28,670 nucleotides of DNA, from positions 1 to 28,670 of IMG/VR virus record IMGVR_UViG_3300025127_000188, one strand, 5' to 3'. Positions 11,117 through 22,282 of the stretch are shown piece by piece. The position numbers and the translations under genes are program-made. How positions within the stretch are numbered: the stretch's first letter is position 1; each line of letters opens with the position of its first letter. Below the pieces are notes generated by a model. It made no database searches. It was not told the origin of the DNA and saw only the letters and a program-made list of their open reading frames with translations. The DNA comes from a virus.

Positions 11117-11280
11117 TAATTTATAAAGAAGTTAAATGCTTCTACCTCATCTTTTAATTCTTCTTGAAACGTTGTGTTTAATTTTTCTACAATTGCATCA
11201 AGATCTCTAACTTGTGCTTCTGCTGTAGGCAAGTCATATTCTTTACTTGGTCTTGTTAATACTTGTACTATTTTTGCCAT
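11116..11280 (-). CDS. Small 54-residue phage protein
   Basis: The frame begins MAKIVQVLTRPSKEYDLPTA and continues as an acidic helix (AEAQVRDLDAIVEKLNTTF) ending EAFNFFIN. Start and stop both overlap the neighbouring genes as TAATG, so it is one link of a coupled chain nozzle protein - this gene - 113-residue protein - 56-residue protein. The regular helical pattern suggests a small coiled-coil or assembly protein. I know no family for it. Confidence 0.65.
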   Translation of the reverse strand: MAKIVQVLTRPSKEYDLPTAEAQVRDLDAIVEKLNTTFQEELKDEVEAFNFFIN

Positions 11281-13463
11281 TATCTACGTCCATCCGGTTG
11301 TATGTCTAATCTAAAAGTTCCTAGTTTCCAACTTTGATTAGTTGTTGTGTTTTCTATTTTTAATGCAATAGCTCTTCCTCTTGCACGTGTGTCTACTTTT
11401 TGTGTTGATGAAGTTATATCAAAAGGTCCAAGTGATGAACTAGCAGCTGTATCATTTGGAAAATTTCTTAAATTTAATGTAACTCTAGTTGTGCCTGTTT
11501 GAGATATAAAGTCAGGTATAAATCTTCTTATCTTCATTATAAATTCACCGTCCCCTCTAAGATCTGCTACACCTGTTGATTGCCCTGTAATACCTCTTCT
11601 TTGACTTATGTCAAAATCTCCAGATGTAATGTTTGCAGTAATAGCTGTTGCAGCTCCACCTTTAATTTGATCGGTTCCTGTTTCGTGTTGATAGTATGTT
11701 GTTCTACCTTCAGTGTTGCCTACAACATCAAAAGATGTATCTGTAGCTGCATCATACTCTAATGCATGTGGTGATCCAAATACTGCAGAATCTTCCCACA
11801 TAGTTCTAGCTAAAGTCCCATTTGTCCACACAGGTCTTTGTGGTGACGAATCAAAATAATTATACGCAACCATTCGATTTACAACAGATGATCCTGATGT
11901 TGGATAAAACCATATAACTTCACCAAACAAATTATTTAATCCTGCTGATACCATTTGATTACCAGACTCTAAATTTATATTATCGTAAACATGGTCCTCT
12001 ACCAAACAAGGTAAAGATTCTAGTTTACCAGCGTATCTAAAAAAACCATTCTCAGACATCCAATAAGCAGCACCATCAACTTCTACACATGCATTCTGTC
12101 CAACAAGTCCACAGTTAGTTCCAACTTGTGCAAACGCAAACGTAAATGGTTGACCAACAAAACGTTGTGTAAATAACGCCGTATCGGTCCAAACATAAAT
12201 TGCATCTCTACCACGAATTGCTCCTCTGATCTGTGATCCATCAGCCAGTCTTTGTGTACCAGCTGTATTAGTTGCTGTAGGTACATATGTGTTTATGTCT
12301 TCTTGATCCGAGAATCTTACAAACATATCATCTTGTGTAGATGTATCTCCGATGGTTGTTTCTGTTCCAAAAAATACTAAGTGTCGATCTGGTGTAGATA
12401 CTAACATATGTCTTGATGCAGTTGGTGCACCTGTTATAATTGTTGCTCTTGTTTCTGTTGCTGCACTAGCTGCAGAATTCCATTCAAATACAGCACTGTC
12501 GTGTATTAAACAAATTGCTTTGTCACCAAAGTTATCTAACGACCACATACCTGGTTCAAGAACCAAGTCTCCTGATGCGGCTTCGCCCCACGCTACATAA
12601 TTTGCCGTGCTGGTAACCGTATCTCCAGCACCATGAGACGCAGCTGTCGTTCCTCTTACTTCTCTTGTTACACCTGTCAATTCGTTAGACGCATTAATAC
12701 CTGTATAAGATATTTCTTCTGTTCCTATTAATATAAAGTTTGTACCAGAATCTGGAAACTGTGATGGATCTGCTAATACAATACCTGTCGTAACCGAAGA
12801 GTTTATTGCATTAGATAAAGTTGTGGTAAATGCTCCAGCTTCTTCTCCACCCCAAGAACCTAATGACCAACCAAAACCTTTCGCTTGTACTGCTGGTCCT
12901 ACAGGATAGTAATGTTGTACTCTAATACCTCCTGATGTTGTGGCACCAGATCCAGACTCATTTGATGGCATAGTTATTGTAAGTGTTGTTCCCGTGGGCA
13001 CGGTTGTTACCATAAATTTTTTATCATCAAAATCTGCTGCTGCAAAGTTAGAATTAGTTATGCTAGAAAAATTATCTAATAATATTATATCTCCCGCTGA
13101 TATGTTGTGATCTGATGAAAAAGTTAATGTAACTGTGGGAGAGCCGTTAGTCGTGCTAAATGCACTTGTTAATGTAGTTGTTGTTTTAATAGGGTGTATG
13201 TCATAAAATACTCCACCAGAAAAAGCATATAAAATTCTATTTGTGCCAATAATAGCGTATTTTCTACCTAAACTATTAACAAAATGATGAAGTCCTCGGC
13301 CTGCACCTGTTAAATTACTTTCTCCTAATTGTTTCCAACCACCTATTTTTTCAGGCGTGCCATATCTAAACCTAACATTATCGCAGTCGATCCATTGACC
13401 TTCAGCGGTTGTGGCTGTAACTTGTTTATTAATACCTGGTTGAAACCCTATTTTTTGTAGCAT
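11280..13463 (-). CDS. Tail nozzle / packaged-DNA stabilisation protein (P22 gp10 / T7 gp12 type)
   Basis: The product has 727 residues. The N-terminus has a signature I associate with the podovirus tail nozzle family: FQPGINKQVTATTAEGQWID followed by CDNVRFRYGTPEKIGGWKQL. This is succeeded by strands typical of a propeller (RGLHHFVNSLGRKYAIIGTN). Residues about 95-180 hold an inserted beta domain (AFSTTNGSPTVTLTF..GDIILLDN..) that looks like the domain in the 164-residue protein at 25946-26440. Later parts contain further propeller strands and a SENGFFRYAGKLESLPC segment. The protein would close the portal channel and guide DNA out of the particle. The start has a GAGGTTAT site. The gene is separated from the adaptor genes by about 11.5 kb, an unusual distance. 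Confidence 0.75.
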   Translation of the reverse strand: MLQKIGFQPGINKQVTATTAEGQWIDCDNVRFRYGTPEKIGGWKQLGESNLTGAGRGLHHFVNSLGRKYAIIGTNRILYAFSGGVFYDIHPIKTTTTLTSAFSTTNGSPTVTLTFSSDHNISAGDIILLDNFSSITNSNFAAADFDDKKFMVTTVPTGTTLTITMPSNESGSGATTSGGIRVQHYYPVGPAVQAKGFGWSLGSWGGEEAGAFTTTLSNAINSSVTTGIVLADPSQFPDSGTNFILIGTEEISYTGINASNELTGVTREVRGTTAASHGAGDTVTSTANYVAWGEAASGDLVLEPGMWSLDNFGDKAICLIHDSAVFEWNSAASAATETRATIITGAPTASRHMLVSTPDRHLVFFGTETTIGDTSTQDDMFVRFSDQEDINTYVPTATNTAGTQRLADGSQIRGAIRGRDAIYVWTDTALFTQRFVGQPFTFAFAQVGTNCGLVGQNACVEVDGAAYWMSENGFFRYAGKLESLPCLVEDHVYDNINLESGNQMVSAGLNNLFGEVIWFYPTSGSSVVNRMVAYNYFDSSPQRPVWTNGTLARTMWEDSAVFGSPHALEYDAATDTSFDVVGNTEGRTTYYQHETGTDQIKGGAATAITANITSGDFDISQRRGITGQSTGVADLRGDGEFIMKIRRFIPDFISQTGTTRVTLNLRNFPNDTAASSSLGPFDITSSTQKVDTRARGRAIALKIENTTTNQSWKLGTFRLDIQPDGRR

Positions 13464-13479
13464 ATAACCTCATTATATA

Positions 13480-14046
13480 TTAAAAGGCCCAGCTTACAAA
13501 TGAGTAACGAGTGCCTTTTGTAGTCTCTCTAACCTCATGTGGGTACATAAAGTTAGATGGAAATAACAGTATATCTCCCGTTTTTAACTCAATTTTCTCT
13601 CCTCTGCAATAGAATTCAGAACCCTCATAGTCTTCGTTTAGGTTGGCTACAATAGATATTAAGGGCACTCCTTTCATATTACCATCAAATATACTGTGTA
13701 TATGATCGTAATGTTCTCTCATCATAGTACCTACAGGATATCTATTAAAACGTATAGGACTAAATTTAGTGAGCCATGGTGCTTGAGTCTTTTGCCCCGG
13801 TACACTATGCTTTTCTTGATATTCGTTTAATGCTTTAATTAAGTATGGTGTTAGCTTTGTTTGTTGTTCTTTAGTACAACTCATAACATCTAATTCTTTT
13901 GTAGCTTCAGAGTGATATGTACCCTCAGAATAATTATTCCATCTATGTTTTTCCCAAATTCTAGTATTACATTCTTTTATTAATGCTTCACATACTTCTT
14001 TTGGTATATGATTCTTTACGTATATATAACTTTTAATTGTGCTCAT
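13480..14046 (-). CDS. 2-oxoglutarate/Fe(II)-dependent oxygenase, prolyl-4-hydroxylase-like
   Basis: The product has 188 residues. The iron triad is visible as H112-x-D114 (in REHYDHIHS) and H170 (YPHEV), with R180 (GTRYSFVSW) as the 2-oxoglutarate-binding arginine. The spacing is right for the P4H/PiuC-like branch. It should hydroxylate an unknown substrate using oxygen, 2-oxoglutarate and iron, and lacks a signal peptide, so it acts in the cytoplasm. AAGGAGG at 14054-14060 sits seven bases before the ATG. It overlaps the end of the preceding oxygenase gene by 14 bases, so the two are co-translated. The substrate could be a virion protein from the adjoining fibre genes or a host molecule; the sequence does not decide. 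Confidence 0.87.
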   Translation of the reverse strand: MSTIKSYIYVKNHIPKEVCEALIKECNTRIWEKHRWNNYSEGTYHSEATKELDVMSCTKEQQTKLTPYLIKALNEYQEKHSVPGQKTQAPWLTKFSPIRFNRYPVGTMMREHYDHIHSIFDGNMKGVPLISIVANLNEDYEGSEFYCRGEKIELKTGDILLFPSNFMYPHEVRETTKGTRYSFVSWAF

Positions 14047-14659
14047 TCATCAACCTCCTTATATCTAAATGAGTTAGTGATTGTTCTGATCCAATAATAT
14101 CAATACAAAATGTATTAAAAGATACGCTTATTCTTTCTTCTTCACTTTGATTTGTTGGTACGCTATGTTTTAGAGAAGAAGGGAACATTATTAATTCACC
14201 AGGTTTACATGGTAACATAAATGTTTCCGAATTGTAATTATTATATTTTATAGGATCTAATTTTATACCATCTTGCCTTTCTTTTGAAAACTGTATTGGT
14301 GGTGATTTTTCATTTATTTGAAAATACATAACCCCGGATATAATAGAATTAGGATGCACATGTTCATGATGATTAGATCCTTTTGGATTTCTATTAGCCC
14401 AACACTGTGTAATAACTAATCTTTGATCAGAGTTTAAAATACCTTTTGTATATTTTTGTACCGACTCTCCTAAAAAATTTTTAATGTTTTTAAATTCTTC
14501 CTTACGTAATAAGTATGAATCATCGGACCTATAGTTACCATTTTGTTTTTGTTCTCGATAACTAATAGTTTTTAAAAAAGCTAATTCTTTATCAATTGGT
14601 TGTTCGTATGGCACGATTAACAAAGGTATTGAAAATAATTGTAACAATTCTTCTTTCAT
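14033..14659 (-). CDS. Second 2OG-Fe(II) oxygenase, TIGR02466-like family
   Basis: From ATG 14659 the product has 208 residues. A three-codon upstream TTG start exists but is rejected, because the ATG overlaps the sulfotransferase stop exactly as ATGA. The family pattern is visible: a His-rich strand HHEHVHPNSIISGVMYF (about residues 97-113), a PGELIMFPSSLKHSVP segment with the distal iron-binding His, and an Arg in EERISVSFN that would hold 2-oxoglutarate. This belongs to a different branch from the neighbouring P4H-like enzyme, so the pair is not a simple duplication. Putative phage oxygenases of this kind are common in marine phages, with largely unknown substrates. Its coding sequence is AT-rich, like the sulfotransferase. 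Confidence 0.82.
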   Translation of the reverse strand: MKEELLQLFSIPLLIVPYEQPIDKELAFLKTISYREQKQNGNYRSDDSYLLRKEEFKNIKNFLGESVQKYTKGILNSDQRLVITQCWANRNPKGSNHHEHVHPNSIISGVMYFQINEKSPPIQFSKERQDGIKLDPIKYNNYNSETFMLPCKPGELIMFPSSLKHSVPTNQSEEERISVSFNTFCIDIIGSEQSLTHLDIRRLMNEHN

Positions 14660-15447
14660 TTTATCCAAAAATTACATTCTTTATAAGCATCTATAATACT
14701 TTTTGGTACTACATCATAAGCATCATAGTCTTTTTTATAATCACTTATAGCCCCTTCTTTTAAAGTATGCAACCCCTTTCCCATTATAGTGTCATCATAA
14801 TTCATATTGTTTACTGTAAATTGTTTTATATTATTAAAATTATGTTTGTATTTTGGTATGCCTAAAAAATTATACACACCATCAATAGTTTGATCTGTAT
14901 TTTTTACTAGATCGTTAAAATCTACAATATGATACATTTCTTTTGGTTGATAATTTAATAAATGTTTAACACCTATTAACTCTTTGACTAACTGACCATC
15001 TTTATTCATTATCATATGACATTTTTCTTCTCTTGTTTTTGCTGCATATTGATTAACAAAAGAAGATGGTTCTCTTTCTGACCAAGCTAAGAAAGATCCT
15101 AATACCTCTATTACGTCTCTTACTAAAATAATAATTTTTATATCTTGTTTAATTGTTTTTAAAAATTGAAGATTAATAGGAAACCCCCAAGGAGATCTAT
15201 CTATAATATATTTTTTGTTCCAATCTTTATAGTAATTATTAAAAACATTTTTAATTATATTTTCTAAAGAACTATGATCTGGAAAATTTTGAAAAATATC
15301 TAATTTTTTTAAAGAATATAATTGACCTACAATATCTGCACAAATACTGTTAGCAGTTACAGCTACATCTTTGTTTTGATTCATGATAGAACCAAACAAT
15401 GTGTTGCCAGCACGTGGTAATCCATGTAGGAAAAATATATCTTTCAT
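14656..15447 (-). CDS. Sulfotransferase (PAPS-dependent)
   Basis: The product has 263 residues. It should transfer sulfate from PAPS to a carbohydrate or protein hydroxyl or tyrosine. The N-terminal 5'-phosphosulfate loop is GLPRAGNTLF (9-18), directly after the first beta strand. The 3'-phosphate site is IILVRDVIEVLGSFL with R110 and S118. The length and the C-terminal FLGIP segment (a YNFLGIP motif of the family) fit a complete single-domain enzyme. No membrane anchor is seen, so it is cytoplasmic, unlike Golgi relatives. Coding DNA is extremely AT-rich (15121-15180 has only 8 G/C of 60), suggesting separate acquisition. It starts 20 bases after the fibre-like gene C with no evident Shine-Dalgarno sequence and is coupled to the following oxygenase by ATGA. 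Confidence 0.87.
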   Translation of the reverse strand: MKDIFFLHGLPRAGNTLFGSIMNQNKDVAVTANSICADIVGQLYSLKKLDIFQNFPDHSSLENIIKNVFNNYYKDWNKKYIIDRSPWGFPINLQFLKTIKQDIKIIILVRDVIEVLGSFLAWSEREPSSFVNQYAAKTREEKCHMIMNKDGQLVKELIGVKHLLNYQPKEMYHIVDFNDLVKNTDQTIDGVYNFLGIPKYKHNFNNIKQFTVNNMNYDDTIMGKGLHTLKEGAISDYKKDYDAYDVVPKSIIDAYKECNFWIK

Positions 15448-15467
15448 TTATAGGATAATACTATATT

Positions 15468-17345
15468 TTACGAACTTTGTAAACCCCCGTGTCCGTCTGA
15501 AGAAGATCCCATATATTTATTAGCTGCAGGTAAATCTCCAAAATCTGAAGCGTTACCTGTAGTAGCTATGGTTACAAAATCCATAACATCTAGCGGATTA
15601 GTACTAGGATTTTGCCCTCCTTGTTTAATTGCTCTAGTGTTGTTACAAATTCCACTTGTTTTATACGCTGTAACAGTTAAGTCTCCAAAATCTTGTTCAT
15701 TACCAGTTGATGCTATTGTAATATAACCAATTGTATTTACTTCAGTAGATGTATATCCACCCATGTTTAAACCTCTTACGCTTGAAGATGCGCCTCCTTG
15801 TCCGTATCTAGCAGCAATTAAATCTCCAAAATCTTGAGCATCACCTGTTGATGCTGTTGTAACATATTCTATAACATTTGTAGATGCAGGAGCAAGATAA
15901 CCACCTCCAAAAATACTTCTTACAGGAGAATTTATTTGTCCAACATTCATAATATAGTTTGCTCCCGTTAAATCTCCAAAGTCGGTAGCATTTCCAAAAG
16001 TTGCAAAAGCAGCATAGTCTATAACATTACTCAGTGATGGCGTATATCCTCCAGCTGTTAAAAATCTTGAAGAATTACTGGCGCAAGAAACGTGTCCTCT
16101 TGTGGCAGTTAAATCTCCAAAATCAGCTGCACGACCAACTGAACTATGTTGAAATTGTTCAATCGTGTTTGTTTTGTCTGGGGCATTACCTCCAGAACTT
16201 ATTGTTCTTGTAACGTTTCCAGCTCCAGCATTATTTTGAACAGCAGTAATTAAATCACCAAAATCTTGTGTAGCACCTAGTGAAGGTATATTTGTCATGT
16301 TAATTTGTGTTACAGCACTGCCTGTTGATCCTCCTAAAGTAAAACCTCTCCCCGATCCAGGCACAGAATTTACTGATGGTCTTAACTCACTAGGCAATCC
16401 TGAGTGTCCGTTTGTATAAAAATTACCACTACCAGAATTTGTGGATAAAATTCCAAATTCAGTTGCATTACCTAAAGAAGCTATATTAACTTTATCTATT
16501 TTATTGTCTATGGTTGGAGTATATCCTGCACCAAAAAATGCAGTAACCTTATTATCACAACCACTTGCATAACCAACATTTCTAGTAAGATCACCAAAAT
16601 CTGTTGCGTTCCCTGTCGAGGCAATAGTTATAAATTCAATTACATTAAAATATGCAGCTGAAGGGGTATCTGTGTAGCCACCTGCTATCAACGCTCTTGT
16701 TTTACTTCCAGCAGCCGCTGCTTGTCTTTTACTTGCTGTTAAATCCCCAAAGTCTGAGTAATTTCCAAAACTAGCTAAATTAACAAAATCTATTTGGTCG
16801 TTTTGTGCTCCAGGTATTGATCCACCAAAAGTAAAACCTCTTTCATTATTACTGGTTCCACATAATCTGTATCGAGCACCGGCAATATCTCCTCCAAAAT
16901 CTATTCCATTTCCTTGAGATGCAATATTTACATATTCTATATTAGCTGTTCTACCACCTAATTTATAAGCTCTTATACTATTTCCTGCACCTGCACCACC
17001 TGATGTTGTGCTAACTTGTGTGTCACCAAAGTCGGTAAAATTACCTGTGGTTGCCATTTCATTAAAATCAATTGTGTTTACAATCGTTGGAGTTCTGCCA
17101 CCATACATAATACCTCTTGTATTATTTGAAGTATTACCTCTGGTAATTTCTCCTCTTGCTTGAGTTAGATCTCCATAGTCTGCTGCAGTTCCACCCGCAG
17201 CAAGATTAACTTGTTCAACTGTATTTACAATTGTTGGAGTATAACCAAGAGCATAAATTCCTCTTGTAGCATCTCTGTAATTTACATTAGCTTGAGATAA
17301 CTGATTTATATTTTTTAGTTTCCAAACTTTTCCTGAATTAGCCAT
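15468..17345 (-). CDS. Kelch-like repeat fibre protein C (6+6 repeats)
   Basis: From ATG 17345 the product has 625 residues. An in-frame upstream ATG at 17381 is rejected because GGAGGA (17354-17359) sits eight bases before 17345. Residues 1-26 hold the head motif GKVWKLKNI, shared in form with paralogues A and B. Six repeats of about 47 residues follow, each with a TRxxxxGG strand, an N.ID.V..AS/T strand and a TGNATDFGDL turn. Then come a linker (NGHSGLPSELRP...), six more repeats and a cap SDGHGGLQSS. The repeats look like kelch or galactose-oxidase-type propeller blades, but I see no catalytic residues. The likely role is host recognition or an adhesin on the tail; that is inference. The final gene of the fibre cluster, it is followed by the sulfotransferase. 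Confidence 0.85.
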   Translation of the reverse strand: MANSGKVWKLKNINQLSQANVNYRDATRGIYALGYTPTIVNTVEQVNLAAGGTAADYGDLTQARGEITRGNTSNNTRGIMYGGRTPTIVNTIDFNEMATTGNFTDFGDTQVSTTSGGAGAGNSIRAYKLGGRTANIEYVNIASQGNGIDFGGDIAGARYRLCGTSNNERGFTFGGSIPGAQNDQIDFVNLASFGNYSDFGDLTASKRQAAAAGSKTRALIAGGYTDTPSAAYFNVIEFITIASTGNATDFGDLTRNVGYASGCDNKVTAFFGAGYTPTIDNKIDKVNIASLGNATEFGILSTNSGSGNFYTNGHSGLPSELRPSVNSVPGSGRGFTLGGSTGSAVTQINMTNIPSLGATQDFGDLITAVQNNAGAGNVTRTISSGGNAPDKTNTIEQFQHSSVGRAADFGDLTATRGHVSCASNSSRFLTAGGYTPSLSNVIDYAAFATFGNATDFGDLTGANYIMNVGQINSPVRSIFGGGYLAPASTNVIEYVTTASTGDAQDFGDLIAARYGQGGASSSVRGLNMGGYTSTEVNTIGYITIASTGNEQDFGDLTVTAYKTSGICNNTRAIKQGGQNPSTNPLDVMDFVTIATTGNASDFGDLPAANKYMGSSSDGHGGLQSS

Positions 17346-17347
17346 AA

Positions 17348-19222
17348 TTATATTCCTCCATGTGCATCGGACACTGTGCAATCATAAGCCCAATTTCGTG
17401 ATAAGTCACCAAAATCTTGTGAGTTACCTGTTGATGCAATGGTTATAAATTGAATTACGTTTTGAACTGAAGGTGCATAACCACCAGTAAACACTCCTCT
17501 AATTTTATTAGATGTGCCTCCCATACCTGAACTATTTGCAAGTAAGTCACCAAAGTCTTGAGCGTTTCCTGTTGATGCTATTGTTACATAATCTATTACG
17601 TTTGTATAAGGTGTGTATCCTCCACCAAAAACAGCTCTTGTAGGACTAGAGCATCCAGCTGGTGCTGCTCTTGCTACACTTAGATCTCCAAAATCCGTTG
17701 CATCGCTGGCAGAGGCAAAAGTAATATAATCTATAACGTTAAATGTTCCTGGTGTTCCTCCTGCTACAAGTCCTCTTGTATCACTACCTGTAGCTCCCGC
17801 TGTTCTTCTAGCTTGAGTTAAATTTCCAAAATCAGAAAAATTTCCCATAGTGGCAATTGTAGCAAATTGTATAACATCTGTAGGGTTTGCACTTGGAGCT
17901 GTTCCTCCTGCATTTACGCCTCTAGTGCCATTTGATATACCAATATTTAATCTTGTGGCTACATCTAAATTTCCAAAATCACAACAATTACCTAATGTAT
18001 GTATTTCGGTAGCATCAACTTGATCACTAGCGGCAGGTGCTGATATCTCACCACCCATCATTAACGCTCTTGTTCCACTAGAACAAGCTGCTCCTTGATC
18101 TCTACCTGTTATTAAATCTCCAAAAAAAGTTCCGTTTCCTAATGTATTAATATTAAAAGTATCCATGCCTGTAGTTTTTGGACTGCTACCACCCATAAGT
18201 AAAGCTCTTCCTGATCCAATTGGCGGAGGTCTTGTGCCTAAATAACCATCACATAAACCACCATGTGAATCAGAAACCTGAGCAGTTTTAGAACCTCTGA
18301 CTGCTGTCATATCTCCAAAATCTGTAAACGTTCCACCTGTTGTAATTATACCAAAATCAATTGTGTTAACAGCACTACCACTAGTATTTTGACCACCCAT
18401 CATAACAGCCCTAACACTGTTTCCTGTGCCGCCAGTGCCTATTCTTGTTACACTTAAATCTCCATAATTAGCTGCGTTACCTTGTGTAGCAATTGTAATA
18501 AAATCAACTACTCCTGTTTGAGTTCCAGGTGAATCATAAGCACCCATAGTAATACCCCTTGTTGAAGAAGAAGTAGATGCTTGAGTTGTTCTAGTTGAAA
18601 CACAGTCACCAAAATCTGTAGCATTACCTGTTGTTGAAATTTCTACAAAGTCTATTGTGTTTACTTCACTAGGTGTTCCACCTCCTGCAAAACAAGCTCT
18701 TGTAGGTGAAGCCAATCCTGCAAGTTGCATTCGTGCTTGTGTAAGATCTCCAAAATCTGTAGCGTTACCTACTGACGCCATTGTAACATACTGAATAACA
18801 TTTGACATTGATGGTGTTCTACCACCCGCAGTTAAACCTCTTATAGAGTTAGAAGTTCCTGCAGCTAAATCAACACTCGTTGCAAGATCTCCAAAGTCTG
18901 CAGCGTTACCTCTAGCTGCAATAGTAACATATTCTATTCCGTTTTGACTACCTGCTGGAGTGCCTCCAGTAAACATTCCTCTTACAAAAGAACTATAACC
19001 ATTTCTCCCTGCATTGGCAACAGCACAATCTCCAAAATCTACTGCGTTACCCGCAGACGATATAGTTATTTCATCAATTTGTGTTATGTCTGATGGTGAA
19101 CCACCACCTTGTGATAAACCTCTAGATGCATGATTAGGCCAATACCCTCCCACAACCGCATCGTAAATTTCTTGCAGTTTCCAAACGCCTTTAGCGTTAT
19201 CGAGTTGCGGGTAGTTAGCCAT
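17348..19222 (-). CDS. Kelch-like repeat fibre protein B (6+6 repeats)
   Basis: The product has 624 residues. The head (1-32) carries YPQLDNAKGVWKLQEIYDAV, closest to paralogue A (YPRRDQARGIWKINDI), so both probably attach to the virion in the same way. Six repeats (about 33-315) end in SDSHGGLCDGY and a Pro-rich linker (TRPPPIGSG). Six further repeats end at SDAHGGI and the stop. Repeats follow the rule TRxxFxGGxTP...NVIDYVTIAS, then TGNAxDFGDL. Two cysteines (NCCDFGN) occur in repeat eight. The last codons HGGI contain the GGAGGA that serves as the ribosome binding site of gene C. The start site is weak (TAGG). No enzymatic motif; the function is likely receptor binding or tail decoration (inferred). 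Confidence 0.85.
   Translation of the reverse strand: MANYPQLDNAKGVWKLQEIYDAVVGGYWPNHASRGLSQGGGSPSDITQIDEITISSAGNAVDFGDCAVANAGRNGYSSFVRGMFTGGTPAGSQNGIEYVTIAARGNAADFGDLATSVDLAAGTSNSIRGLTAGGRTPSMSNVIQYVTMASVGNATDFGDLTQARMQLAGLASPTRACFAGGGTPSEVNTIDFVEISTTGNATDFGDCVSTRTTQASTSSSTRGITMGAYDSPGTQTGVVDFITIATQGNAANYGDLSVTRIGTGGTGNSVRAVMMGGQNTSGSAVNTIDFGIITTGGTFTDFGDMTAVRGSKTAQVSDSHGGLCDGYLGTRPPPIGSGRALLMGGSSPKTTGMDTFNINTLGNGTFFGDLITGRDQGAACSSGTRALMMGGEISAPAASDQVDATEIHTLGNCCDFGNLDVATRLNIGISNGTRGVNAGGTAPSANPTDVIQFATIATMGNFSDFGNLTQARRTAGATGSDTRGLVAGGTPGTFNVIDYITFASASDATDFGDLSVARAAPAGCSSPTRAVFGGGYTPYTNVIDYVTIASTGNAQDFGDLLANSSGMGGTSNKIRGVFTGGYAPSVQNVIQFITIASTGNSQDFGDLSRNWAYDCTVSDAHGGI
17354..17359 (-). promoter_or_regulatory. 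Ribosome binding site of gene C, inside the end of gene B
   Basis: GGAGGA on the minus strand lies eight bases upstream of ATG 17345. It is formed by the Gly-Gly codons of the C-terminal cap of gene B. It decides the start of gene C and keeps the downstream start tied to passage of the ribosome to the end of gene B. Confidence 0.75.
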
Positions 19223-19225
19223 TTA

Positions 19226-19516
19226 CTAACCTACTTTTTTAGACCAGATATATGTGGCTGCTTGTGCTTGATCAAACGGTACAGTTTCATCTGGGTTACC
19301 AGCTTCAGTTGGTTCAGTCCAATCAGATGTATAACTATCTAAATAAGTTTTTACAGCTGCTTCATCTGCTAACTCTCCAAGTCCAGTTTCATCTGAACCA
19401 TCAACCGTTGCACCAATCATAACTTCATCGGATGTTGGATAGTATCCGCCATCTTCAATCCATGAAGGAATTGTAGTGCCACCGTCTAATTTATATTTGA
19501 CTATCTTGTTTGCCAT
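19226..19516 (-). CDS. Small acidic phage protein upstream of fibre gene B
   Basis: The product has 96 residues and starts MANKIVKYKLDGGTTIPSWI, with a Gly/Tyr patch (DGGYYPTSDEV) and an acidic, Pro-containing C-terminal half (DWTEPTEAGNPDETVPF) ending AATYIWSKKVG. It is acidic overall and has no cysteine. A 26-base overlap with the preceding coiled-coil gene and a three-base gap to gene B show it is in the same operon. I recall similar small proteins next to fibre genes in marine phages, without a known role; a fibre accessory or chaperone is possible. Confidence 0.72.
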   Translation of the reverse strand: MANKIVKYKLDGGTTIPSWIEDGGYYPTSDEVMIGATVDGSDETGLGELADEAAVKTYLDSYTSDWTEPTEAGNPDETVPFDQAQAATYIWSKKVG

Positions 19517-20348
19517 TTGGTTTCTCCTTGTTATCTAACAGTTTAGTATTGAGCGACTCTTCATCGTACAGCTTAAATCCTCTACGCTCTGCAAATTTCT
19601 CTGCATCTCCTGAAAATTTATCAGCGCACGCTTCTAACCATTGCATGGTCATTTCGTGAGTTGGCGCTTTGCCTTGACCCATCATATCATTTTCCATTTT
19701 AAGATATGCATAGATTTCAGCTTGTGCCTGAGCACTGTTTATACCCATATCAAAGAGATAAATCAAGTTTCCTTCGTCAATGACTCCACCTCTTGCACGA
19801 GCAGCATTTAGAGCCTGTTTCATACACGTCATAACGTGATATCTGGACTCTTCCTTTTCATACTCTTCTTCAGTGATATCATCTTTACCCAGTTTCTTCA
19901 ATATGCTTTTATACTGATTAGTAAAGAAGTTCATCTTTCTAATGGCCCCAGACACTGAATTTTGTATGTTAGCCATGTTTACCTTAACCTCTAAAATCTC
20001 TGTTTCTAACAATTCTCTTTCTAACTCATCTTTGTAATCTCCATCTTCAAGTCTTTTTTCTTTTTGACGAAGCTCAATATCTTTTTTCATCATTTTAAGT
20101 TGAGCTTCTTCTAAAGCCATTCTAGTTTTATCTAGTTCAGCTAATGTGTGTTTGACTGATCTAATAGGTGTAATTGCTGTAACATCTAACATGACACCCA
20201 TAAACTGTGAGTGTGATTTATAGAAGTTTGAGCTTGATTGTTTGATTGCAGGTAAATTGGTATTAATATTGGTTAACATTTGTTTATACTCTTTTTTAAC
20301 CAGTGGTGAGTTTGATAGTTTTTGTATAACTAGATCTTTAGATGACAT
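19491..20348 (-). CDS. Coiled-coil phage protein between the fibre genes
   Basis: The 285-residue product is strongly charged and helical. About residues 60-145 form a long coiled coil (ALEEAQLKMMKKDIELRQKE, KRLEDGDYKDELERELLETE). A conserved-looking helical domain follows (ALNAARARGGVIDEGNLIYL, FDMGINSAQAQAEIYAYL). The C-terminus is lysine-rich and disordered-looking. It has no beta-helix or repeat character, unlike the adjacent fibre proteins, so it could be an assembly factor or chaperone for A and B rather than a fibre itself. This is inference. The start has AAGGAG seven bases upstream and follows a 65-base spacer, the longest gene-free gap within the fibre block. Confidence 0.78.
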   Translation of the reverse strand: MSSKDLVIQKLSNSPLVKKEYKQMLTNINTNLPAIKQSSSNFYKSHSQFMGVMLDVTAITPIRSVKHTLAELDKTRMALEEAQLKMMKKDIELRQKEKRLEDGDYKDELERELLETEILEVKVNMANIQNSVSGAIRKMNFFTNQYKSILKKLGKDDITEEEYEKEESRYHVMTCMKQALNAARARGGVIDEGNLIYLFDMGINSAQAQAEIYAYLKMENDMMGQGKAPTHEMTMQWLEACADKFSGDAEKFAERRGFKLYDEESLNTKLLDNKEKPNGKQDSQI

Positions 20349-20413
20349 ATTTTTCTCCTTTATAATTTAGCATGTATATGATCATGTTGTGGTTTTTATA
20401 CTATATAATATTA
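20349..20413 (-). other. AT-rich spacer, possible promoter or processing site
   Basis: In a cluster where genes otherwise overlap or lie within about 20 bases, this 65-base gap is exceptional. On the minus strand it contains an AT-rich run with a palindromic ATAATATTAT and TATAAA-like words, then ATGATCAT, then the AAGGAG of the next gene. I see no TTGACA-type -35 box and no GC-rich hairpin, so a promoter, an attenuator or merely a recombination seam remain possible. Confidence 0.25.
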
Positions 20414-22282
20414 TTAAAGTCCACCATGTCCGTTTGAAGAGGCAGCCATATATCCAGAAGCAGTATCAAGATCTCCAAAATCCTGAGCATTTCCTGTAGA
20501 CGCTATTGTAATATAATCAATAACATTAGAAACTGAAGGTGTTACACCTCCAACAAATAATCCTCTAGTTCCATTAGATGAATCTCCTCTACCAGCACCC
20601 GCTCTTGCAGCACTCAAATCTCCAAAATCCGTAGCATTACTTGTCGAAGCTATGGTTATATATTCCATAGTGTTTACTATAGAAGGTTCTTCTCCCCCTG
20701 CAAATACACCTCTTGTTCCGTTACTTACACCTGCAGAAGCTTTTCTAGCGGCACTTAAATCTCCAAAATCTGTATAATTACTAGTAGAACCTATTGTAGC
20801 ATAGTCTATAACATTTGTGTTTGAAGGTGTAGAACCTCCTGCACGAATCGCTCTTGTTGAACTTGCTGCACCTCCCCCTGCACAAACTGTTTCAGTTAAA
20901 TTTCCAAAATCTGTTGCGTTACCAACTGAAGCAATGGTTACATAATCGACTGTGTCGCTTCTTGATGGAGTACATCCCCCTTGAAATAGCCCTCTAGTTG
21001 AATTAGAAGCTGGAGTTAAACCAAATTCACTTCTAGTTAAATTACCAAAATCAGCTGAGTTTCCTTTTGTAGAAAATTCTACATAATCTATTTGATTTAA
21101 AGCAGGGCTCAATTCATAACCAGCTATGACTGATCTAGTAGCACTTGATAATGAAACTACTCCTCCTGCTCTTGATAACGTTCCAAAATCTTGTGAATTA
21201 CCTAATGTTGATATTTGTACAAAATCAACTCTATCCATATTTGAAGGAGAGGTTCCTCCAGCAATAACAGAAATATCTCCCGATAAAGGTCTACCTGTTG
21301 GTGAATAAAGTTCCGGGGCTCTTGGATTAAATTCTTGTAAGCCACCATGATTGTTTGCATTACCACTACTTTGAGAGCAAGAAGTACAATCTCCAAAATC
21401 TGTAGCATTACCAGCATGTGCAATTGTAATAAATTCAATAACCGCTGTTCCAGGATTACCACCTGCAAATACTCCTCTTACTTTACTACTCATTCCGTTT
21501 GGATGTTGATTTTCAGCTGTAAAATCTCCAAAATCTGTAGCATTGCTTTTACTTCCTATTTCAACAGAATTTATTACATTACCAACAGGAGATATACCAC
21601 CTGCAAATATACCTCTTGTAGAAGAACACGCTCCTCCTGGTTGACTTGTTGCAACAGTTAAATCTCCAAAATCAACAGCATTAGCTTTAGTAGAAAATTC
21701 TACAAAATCAATTTGATTAGAATTTGCAGGAGAAGTATTAAACCCTGCAAATAATCCTCTAGTTTCAGAATTTACCTGTGAGTTTTGAAGTCCTGCTTGA
21801 GATGCAGTTAAATCTCCAAAATCTATTGCGTTACCTAAAGTAGCGTAAGTTATAAAATCAATAACATTTGTATTAGGAACACCTCCTCCTACTAAACCTA
21901 CTATTCTATTTCCTGCAGAACCCAATAATCTTCTTGCAACAGTTAAATCTCCAAAATCTGCATAATTACCTTGATTAACAAAATGAATATAATCTATGGT
22001 ATTATTTACACCTGGATTAGCACCACCTAAAAAAACACTTCTAATAAAACTTCCTAGACCAGCATTCATGTTTCTTCCAACAGTTAAATCTCCAAAGTCA
22101 GTTGAATTACCTGTGGTTTCTACAGTTATTTGTTCAACTGCATTAGAATTACTTGATCCAATATTAAATAATCCTCTAGTAGAACCTTGAGGATAAGTTC
22201 CCTCTCCTTTTATATTTTTGGTAATATCATTGATCTTCCAAATCCCTCGGGCTTGGTCTCGTCTAGGATAACTACTTGCCAT
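20414..22282 (-). CDS. Kelch-like repeat fibre protein A (6+6 repeats)
   Basis: The product has 622 residues. Head residues 1-33 contain YPRRDQARGIWKINDI. Repeats one to six run at about 34-77, 78-124, 125-171, 172-219, 220-265 and 266-315, the last ending NNHGGL. A linker (316-338, with RAPELYSPTGRP) leads to six more repeats and the cap SSNGHGGL. Each repeat is 44-50 residues with a TRGxFxGG strand and a GNATDFGDL turn. The layout is identical to B and C, so the three genes derive from one ancestor. The role is most likely host receptor recognition or tail decoration. AGGAGG overlaps the stop of the preceding gene and precedes the ATG by about eight bases. Confidence 0.86.
   Translation of the reverse strand: MASSYPRRDQARGIWKINDITKNIKGEGTYPQGSTRGLFNIGSSNSNAVEQITVETTGNSTDFGDLTVGRNMNAGLGSFIRSVFLGGANPGVNNTIDYIHFVNQGNYADFGDLTVARRLLGSAGNRIVGLVGGGVPNTNVIDFITYATLGNAIDFGDLTASQAGLQNSQVNSETRGLFAGFNTSPANSNQIDFVEFSTKANAVDFGDLTVATSQPGGACSSTRGIFAGGISPVGNVINSVEIGSKSNATDFGDFTAENQHPNGMSSKVRGVFAGGNPGTAVIEFITIAHAGNATDFGDCTSCSQSSGNANNHGGLQEFNPRAPELYSPTGRPLSGDISVIAGGTSPSNMDRVDFVQISTLGNSQDFGTLSRAGGVVSLSSATRSVIAGYELSPALNQIDYVEFSTKGNSADFGNLTRSEFGLTPASNSTRGLFQGGCTPSRSDTVDYVTIASVGNATDFGNLTETVCAGGGAASSTRAIRAGGSTPSNTNVIDYATIGSTSNYTDFGDLSAARKASAGVSNGTRGVFAGGEEPSIVNTMEYITIASTSNATDFGDLSAARAGAGRGDSSNGTRGLFVGGVTPSVSNVIDYITIASTGNAQDFGDLDTASGYMAASSNGHGGL

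Follow-up and report, generated by a model that had tools for sequence, protein, structure and literature searches.

The window, by which we mean the whole 28.7 kb virus record that was analysed, carries three minus-strand genes, transcribed in the order C, B, A, that encode the paralogous repeat proteins considered here. They do not form an unbroken run, since ORF285 and ORF96 separate C from B. The features of the region and the parts of each protein are as follows.

11280-13463: largest identifiable virion gene of the window (phrog_3287, virion structural protein)
13480..14046, minus strand: second 2OG-Fe(II) oxygenase
14033..14668, minus strand: 2OG-Fe(II) oxygenase
14656..15447, minus strand: sulfotransferase (PF13469/PF00685, phrog_27463), downstream of A
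15468..17345, minus strand: protein A, 625 aa from the ATG, 6 + 6 repeats (segmentation, repeat HMM)
15492..16352, minus strand: A, predicted propeller 2, residues 332-618 (segmentation)
16353..16406, minus strand: A, HSGL and linker, residues 314-331 (segmentation)
16407..17267, minus strand: A, predicted propeller 1, residues 27-313 (segmentation)
17268..17345, minus strand: A, anchor, residues 1-26; slot A family MSNSGK[IV]W[DK]
17348..19222, minus strand: protein B, 624 aa, 6 + 6 repeats (segmentation, repeat HMM)
17363..18211, minus strand: B, predicted propeller 2, residues 338-620 (segmentation)
18212..18265, minus strand: B, HGGL and linker, residues 320-337 (segmentation)
18266..19126, minus strand: B, predicted propeller 1, residues 33-319 (segmentation)
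19127..19222, minus strand: B, anchor, residues 1-32; slot B consensus MANYPQLDNA.GVW.LREVYDAVMGGYWP
19226..19516, minus strand: ORF96, small conserved gene in the ORF285-B interval, 61-77% identical in synteny
19491..20348, minus strand: ORF285, all-helical, phrog_1409, conserved partner gene
20414..22282, minus strand: protein C, 622 aa, anchor and two six-repeat blocks (segmentation, AlphaFold2, Foldseek)
20414..20428, minus strand: C, terminal HGGL cap and stop (segmentation)
20429..21277, minus strand: C, predicted propeller 2, residues 336-618, six repeats (segmentation, AlphaFold2 strands)
21278..21349, minus strand: C, HGGL and linker, residues 312-335 (segmentation; low pLDDT at 318-333)
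21350..22180, minus strand: C, predicted propeller 1, residues 35-311, six repeats (segmentation, AlphaFold2 strands)
22181..22282, minus strand: C, anchor, residues 1-34; slot C consensus M..SYPRRDQARG[IL]WKINDITKNIK..GTYP

The TTG start listed for A, at 17381, falls within the end of B and is probably wrong, since the ATG at 17345 yields MANSGKVWKL, in agreement with the slot-A family.

A, B and C are flanked by tail genes on one side and on the other by the phrog_3287 virion gene, the product of which is closest to those of the Pelagibacter phages HTVC027P and HTVC023P and of phage 023Pt_psg01 (44-48% identity); some relatives of this gene are annotated as 'stabilization protein'. The nearest cultured relatives found are HTVC023P-type pelagiphages, which are described as widely distributed and as belonging to the most abundant marine phages (PMC9599517); kelch proteins, tail fibres and sulfotransferases are not mentioned in that account. 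In the corresponding region, HTVC027P encodes a tail-collar protein and 023Pt_psg01, like the window, three tandem paralogues, but the latter are unrelated Gly-rich proteins with a conserved GGSGIVIIRY[KR]FQ end and are not propellers.

A more distant family is that of Synechococcus phage S-SKS1 and its relatives (phrog_19111), the propeller genes of which, like those of the window, occur as several paralogues of six repeats, a linker and six repeats, and adjoin an ORF285-family gene, a sulfotransferase and a 2OG oxygenase. Proteins of this type differ from those of the window by their low identity (about 28%), their different anchors and the absence of an HGG cap. The sulfotransferase family was found in 37 of 150 propeller loci, from both families and including S-SKS1, and, of 87 ORF285-family genes, 84 adjoin a propeller gene (60/62 and 24/25), phrog_1409 being assigned to the ORF285 versions of both the window and S-SKS1. 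Neither ORF285 nor ORF96 matched named phage records, and the all-helical fold of ORF285 had no significant match in the PDB; from its linkage, ORF285 is a candidate assembly factor or chaperone.

Repeat architecture and predicted fold

Using a segmentation anchored at the strand-B motif, we found that A, B and C each consist of six repeats, a His-Gly linker (NGHSGL in A, SDSHGGL in B and NNHGGL in C), six further repeats and a cap (HGGL in A and C, HGGI in B). The total of 36 repeats and the 6 + 6 layout proposed in the initial annotation are thereby confirmed, with repeat lengths of 44-51 aa, 47 being the commonest, and an HMM built from the repeats finds 12 domains per protein, the sixth being followed by a wider gap than the others. 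The linkers had been described as completely different; they share the His-Gly start and differ in the rest. B and A are 46% and 40% identical to C over the whole protein. The first halves of the three proteins are no closer to one another than to the second halves (34-49%), and repeats of the same rank are barely more alike than others (41 vs 38% identity), values that allow no claim as to the order in which the two halves were duplicated.

AlphaFold2 modelling of C, with 93 homologues, gave twelve repeats of four strands each at a pLDDT of 88.7, the mutual arrangement of the two propellers not being fixed by the model (pTM 0.55). Compared with the PDB by Foldseek, this model matched kelch domains nearly throughout, each spanning about 290 residues, that is, half of C, among them the six-bladed kelch domains of KLHL12, Keap1 and the designed SAKe6 (TMt 0.8-0.91, E about 1e-17). 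A, B and C are thus predicted, with very little doubt, to share a tandem six-bladed kelch-type propeller fold, as the initial annotation had suggested. The known domains resemble the window proteins in their six four-stranded blades, repeats of about 47 residues and Gly-Gly after strand B (in the window proteins G at 86% and 92% at repeat positions 7-8). They differ in that the window proteins are only 10-15% identical to them, lack a Pfam kelch match, have two tandem rings with an HGG cap and a short virion-type anchor in place of the BTB domain, and carry the Phe of DFGD at the kelch Trp position. Of the two aromatic positions of the kelch signature, Tyr in strand C and Trp in strand D, the first (position 19) is Y/F in 75% of repeats, and the second (position 31) is F in 95% and W in about none.

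The designation 'kelch-like' therefore stands by fold and, for the S-SKS1-type relatives, which reach or exceed the cut-off of Pfam kelch models, also by family; no Pfam kelch model matches A, B or C themselves, A and B being without any above-threshold family and C having weak unrelated matches only. In sequence, it is the S-SKS1-type family that links the window proteins to kelch. Searches of PDB sequences with a single protein and with a 93-sequence profile returned no match. RCC1 and galactose oxidase were considered and set aside, as neither family matched A, B or C and RCC1 has seven blades as against six here. Unlike most tailed-phage fibres, the three proteins show neither a trimeric stalk nor a coiled coil.

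The strand order seen in the model is B (RGvFaGG), C (IDYiTIA), D (DFGDL) and A (aagcSN), each six-repeat block opening on strand B and finishing on strand A, and closure of the ring is inferred from the global match to closed six-bladed kelch domains. Such a ring would be shut by a 3+1 velcro closure, its final strand A pairing with the opening B-C-D, and the HGG motif lies directly behind that strand A. Both the window family and the S-SKS1-type family terminate just past strand A, as this closure predicts. The HGG cap, which in one of the two alternatives of the initial annotation closed the propellers, is absent from S-SKS1-type relatives (0/57), most of which stop at ...SN right after the ring-closing strand, and the cap is therefore not needed for closing the ring.

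Repeat counts among homologues

We surveyed 150 loci with repeat ORFs, containing 270 ORFs closed at both ends, of which 245 have exactly 6, 12 or 18 repeats (12 in 178, 6 in 63, 18 in 4 and other counts in 25); the loci were picked by similarity to a 12-repeat query, a choice that biases the sample toward long proteins without any bias toward multiples of six. The 25 ORFs with other counts were judged by block spacing, supplemented by a full reading of eleven ORFs. Most of these other counts reflect one missed repeat, with a gap of about one repeat, or the pieces of a frameshifted gene, as in S-SKS1, which reads across frames as 6 + SGGASERIKGSR + 6 repeats. The exceptions are a clean seven-repeat protein (locus L142) and a 4 + 6 protein with a frameshift (L134), the count of which could be explained by short-read assembly collapse of near-identical repeats. 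Representatives of 40%-identity clusters, pre-selected for 6, 11, 12 or 18 repeats, comprise nine proteins with 6, seven with 12 and one with 18. Elsewhere, family proteins carry one, two or three blocks behind other N-terminal parts, including one with a weak fibronectin-III match.

The repeat number thus does not vary freely. The initial annotation had taken the differing linkers as proof of selection on the count, which is a weak argument; stronger evidence is that changes in count come nearly always in steps of six.

Slots, anchors and variable faces

Many phages share the gene order C-ORF285-ORF96-B-(D)-A, D being a fourth slot, present in many relatives, with one six-repeat block. In a body-only tree, from which the anchors had been removed (a quick tree with SH-aLRT support only), all A proteins (support 99) and all C proteins (96) each fall on one side of a branch and B needs two changes, so that the three slots total two changes compared with 30 in shuffles. 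On this quick tree, movement of propellers from one slot to another is rejected, and A, B and C are old, non-interchangeable slots.

Within each slot, a conserved anchor is followed by a variable body, conservation stopping at the start of the first repeat. Mean pairwise identities of anchor and body are 86% vs 45% in slot C (18 phages), 90% vs 46% in slot B (29 phages) and 67% vs 43% in slot A (19 phages), figures in which divergence through allele exchange is counted along with that built up under selection. In syntenic loci the propeller proteins are 39-52% identical to the window versions and the flanking genes mostly 80-98%: 81-87% for 2OGa (64% in L039), 77-90% for 2OGb, 80-85% for tail235 and, in most relatives compared, 87-98% for ORF285 (mostly 93-98%, 87% in L039). 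One locus, L010, has a C that is 94% identical to that of the window but a B and an A that are 50% and 41% identical, which indicates that the slots change independently.

The variation is concentrated in particular loops. Mean entropy is 2.80 bits for the B-C and D-A loops and 1.46 for the A-B and C-D loops; every one of the 12 blades shows a difference in this direction (Wilcoxon p 0.0005), and indels hardly occur outside the B-C and D-A loops. By propeller geometry, these two sets of loops are on opposite faces. The Nrf2 site of Keap1 lies on the B-C/D-A loop side, the same face that is most variable in the window proteins.

Possible function and alternative readings

Given the anatomy, repeat counts, predicted fold, site of variation, slot structure and locus context described above, A, B and C are probably tail-associated receptor-binding proteins, each composed of a slot anchor and two tandem six-bladed propellers. 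They lie in the tail/adhesin region and combine a conserved anchor with a variable distal part, both of which are used to recognise receptor-binding proteins of tailed phages, and a receptor-binding role is likely. On the likeliest reading, fixed virion anchors carry putative receptor-binding heads that would be exchangeable. The anchors would fix A, B and C to distinct sites on a short tail, with ORF285 possibly helping assembly or attachment; the nearly invariant face formed by the A-B and C-D loops would point to the virion or to adjacent subunits, and the B-C/D-A face, which tolerates substitutions and indels, would bind host surface structures. Heads would be exchanged within a slot while the anchor and the blade number stay fixed.

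The presence of three near-equal paralogues had been taken to suggest parallel receptor specificities, and the data fit this proposal, but ancient non-interchangeable slots equally allow A, B and C, joined by D in the phages that have it, to form one hetero-oligomeric tail device, of which one slot or the whole assembly contacts the receptor. This is the main rival, a reading we hold to be somewhat doubtful although well worth weighing, and it overlaps with the preferred one, as it is compatible with a receptor-binding role. The ancient orthologous groups without propeller exchange, the conserved anchor proper to every slot and the gene order kept across many phages all speak for a single device, whereas the similar hypervariability of all three slots (bodies 43-46% identical), their independent change at L010 and the dispensability of D speak against it; the present data fit both arrangements alike.

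A second possibility is that the proteins decorate the virion or form whiskers, binding particles or polysaccharides loosely without determining specificity. Kelch propellers bind many types of ligand, the neighbouring sulfotransferase and oxygenase genes are suggestive of glycan chemistry, and one of the three kelch proteins of phage CBB was detected in the virion, without a known function (PMC5259590). Hypervariability beside conserved neighbours, together with variation on one face, suggests an arms race with a specific partner instead, and we regard mere decoration as unlikely.

The kelch proteins of the large phages CBB, PhiPA3 and BcepSaruman, phages that were represented among the matches found, share the kelch propeller with the window proteins but belong to large genomes, and the portions of their descriptions available to us report neither slot-specific anchors nor a six/twelve/eighteen family. 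Host-surface binding has been proposed for two baseplate beta-propeller proteins, the receptor-binding protein of Staphylococcus phage phi11 and PhiKZ gp131C (PMC4901313), which differ from those of the window in being five- and seven-bladed with one propeller per chain and, for phi11, in having a trimeric helical stem.

It is also improbable that the fixed count represents historical inertia, the mere copying of a 12-repeat ancestor: slippage may be rare between repeats only about 38-41% identical to one another, and most loci come from related phages, but counts do shift, nearly always by whole blocks, and block counts persist at identities as low as about 26-28% and behind N-terminal domains that do not resemble one another. 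Kelch proteins of cells and poxviruses commonly serve as adaptors, and poxvirus proteins were among the matches found, but an intracellular adaptor that rewires the host, and is no part of the virion, is very improbable for proteins that lie among tail and structural genes, in a region where relatives have tail-collar or Gly-rich tail proteins.

Phage kelch propellers, one of them in a virion, and propeller receptor-binding proteins with five and seven blades are already known, and our literature search on phage kelch receptor-binding proteins, which covered work outside subscription journals, found no account of the present family. We tentatively propose, as a real possibility short of a firm conclusion, that the window proteins represent an undescribed and widespread class of marine phage adhesin, in which the kelch ring is an indivisible unit present in one to three copies, borne on slot anchors, with an invariant and a hypervariable face in an antibody-like display, and in which the slots diversify independently. 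If the receptor-binding reading is true, the three or four hypervariable propeller genes would constitute the host-specificity cassette of HTVC023P-type phages, with the residues that govern host range expected in the B-C and D-A loops of the 12 blades and the anchors serving as fixed joints. The family also provides a plain natural example of the gain and loss of propellers by entire rings.

Repeat counts and gene models

L142:101-1234, seven-repeat protein
L134:2923-4459, 4 + 6 protein
L162:1577-4171, 12-repeat protein with C-terminal extension
L008:1663-6195, two 6 + 6 propeller genes of Synechococcus phage S-SKS1

Departures from six repeats are rare among the related loci, being represented by an intact protein with seven repeats (L142) and by a 4 + 6 arrangement that also carries a frameshift (L134). 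The L162 protein bears a 224-residue extension after its 12 repeats. In the GenBank annotation of S-SKS1, both propeller genes are broken by frameshifts, after which each continues in another frame.

Genes accompanying the propellers

Window 14656-15447, sulfotransferase
L008:3512-4342, S-SKS1 sulfotransferase
Window 19491-20348, minus strand, ORF285 (all-helical product)

The window and S-SKS1 each have a sulfotransferase gene next to their propeller genes, as do roughly one in four propeller loci; the substrate of the enzyme may be a host glycan or the adhesin itself. ORF285, for which neither a named relative nor a PDB fold match was found, ranks with the best-conserved members of the cassette, and its family occurs alongside two propeller families that are distant relatives of each other.

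The N-terminal domain of slot D

L014:7895-9115, slot D protein
L016:12964-14211, slot D protein
L019:8244-9515, slot D protein
L167:8539-9771, slot D protein

Slot D, the fourth propeller-gene position of many relatives, is missing in the window and in L010. Its proteins match tail-fibre PHROGs, and in their N-terminal domain a conserved His (within GHPLRF or THNLAF) is followed downstream by YYYC and then [NQS]HSGM. As read from these motifs, the His-Cys-His-Met set is that of a type 1 copper site, and Pfam Copper-bind matches the domain weakly (E 0.023). The slot D proteins may each join a cupredoxin to a phage adhesin.
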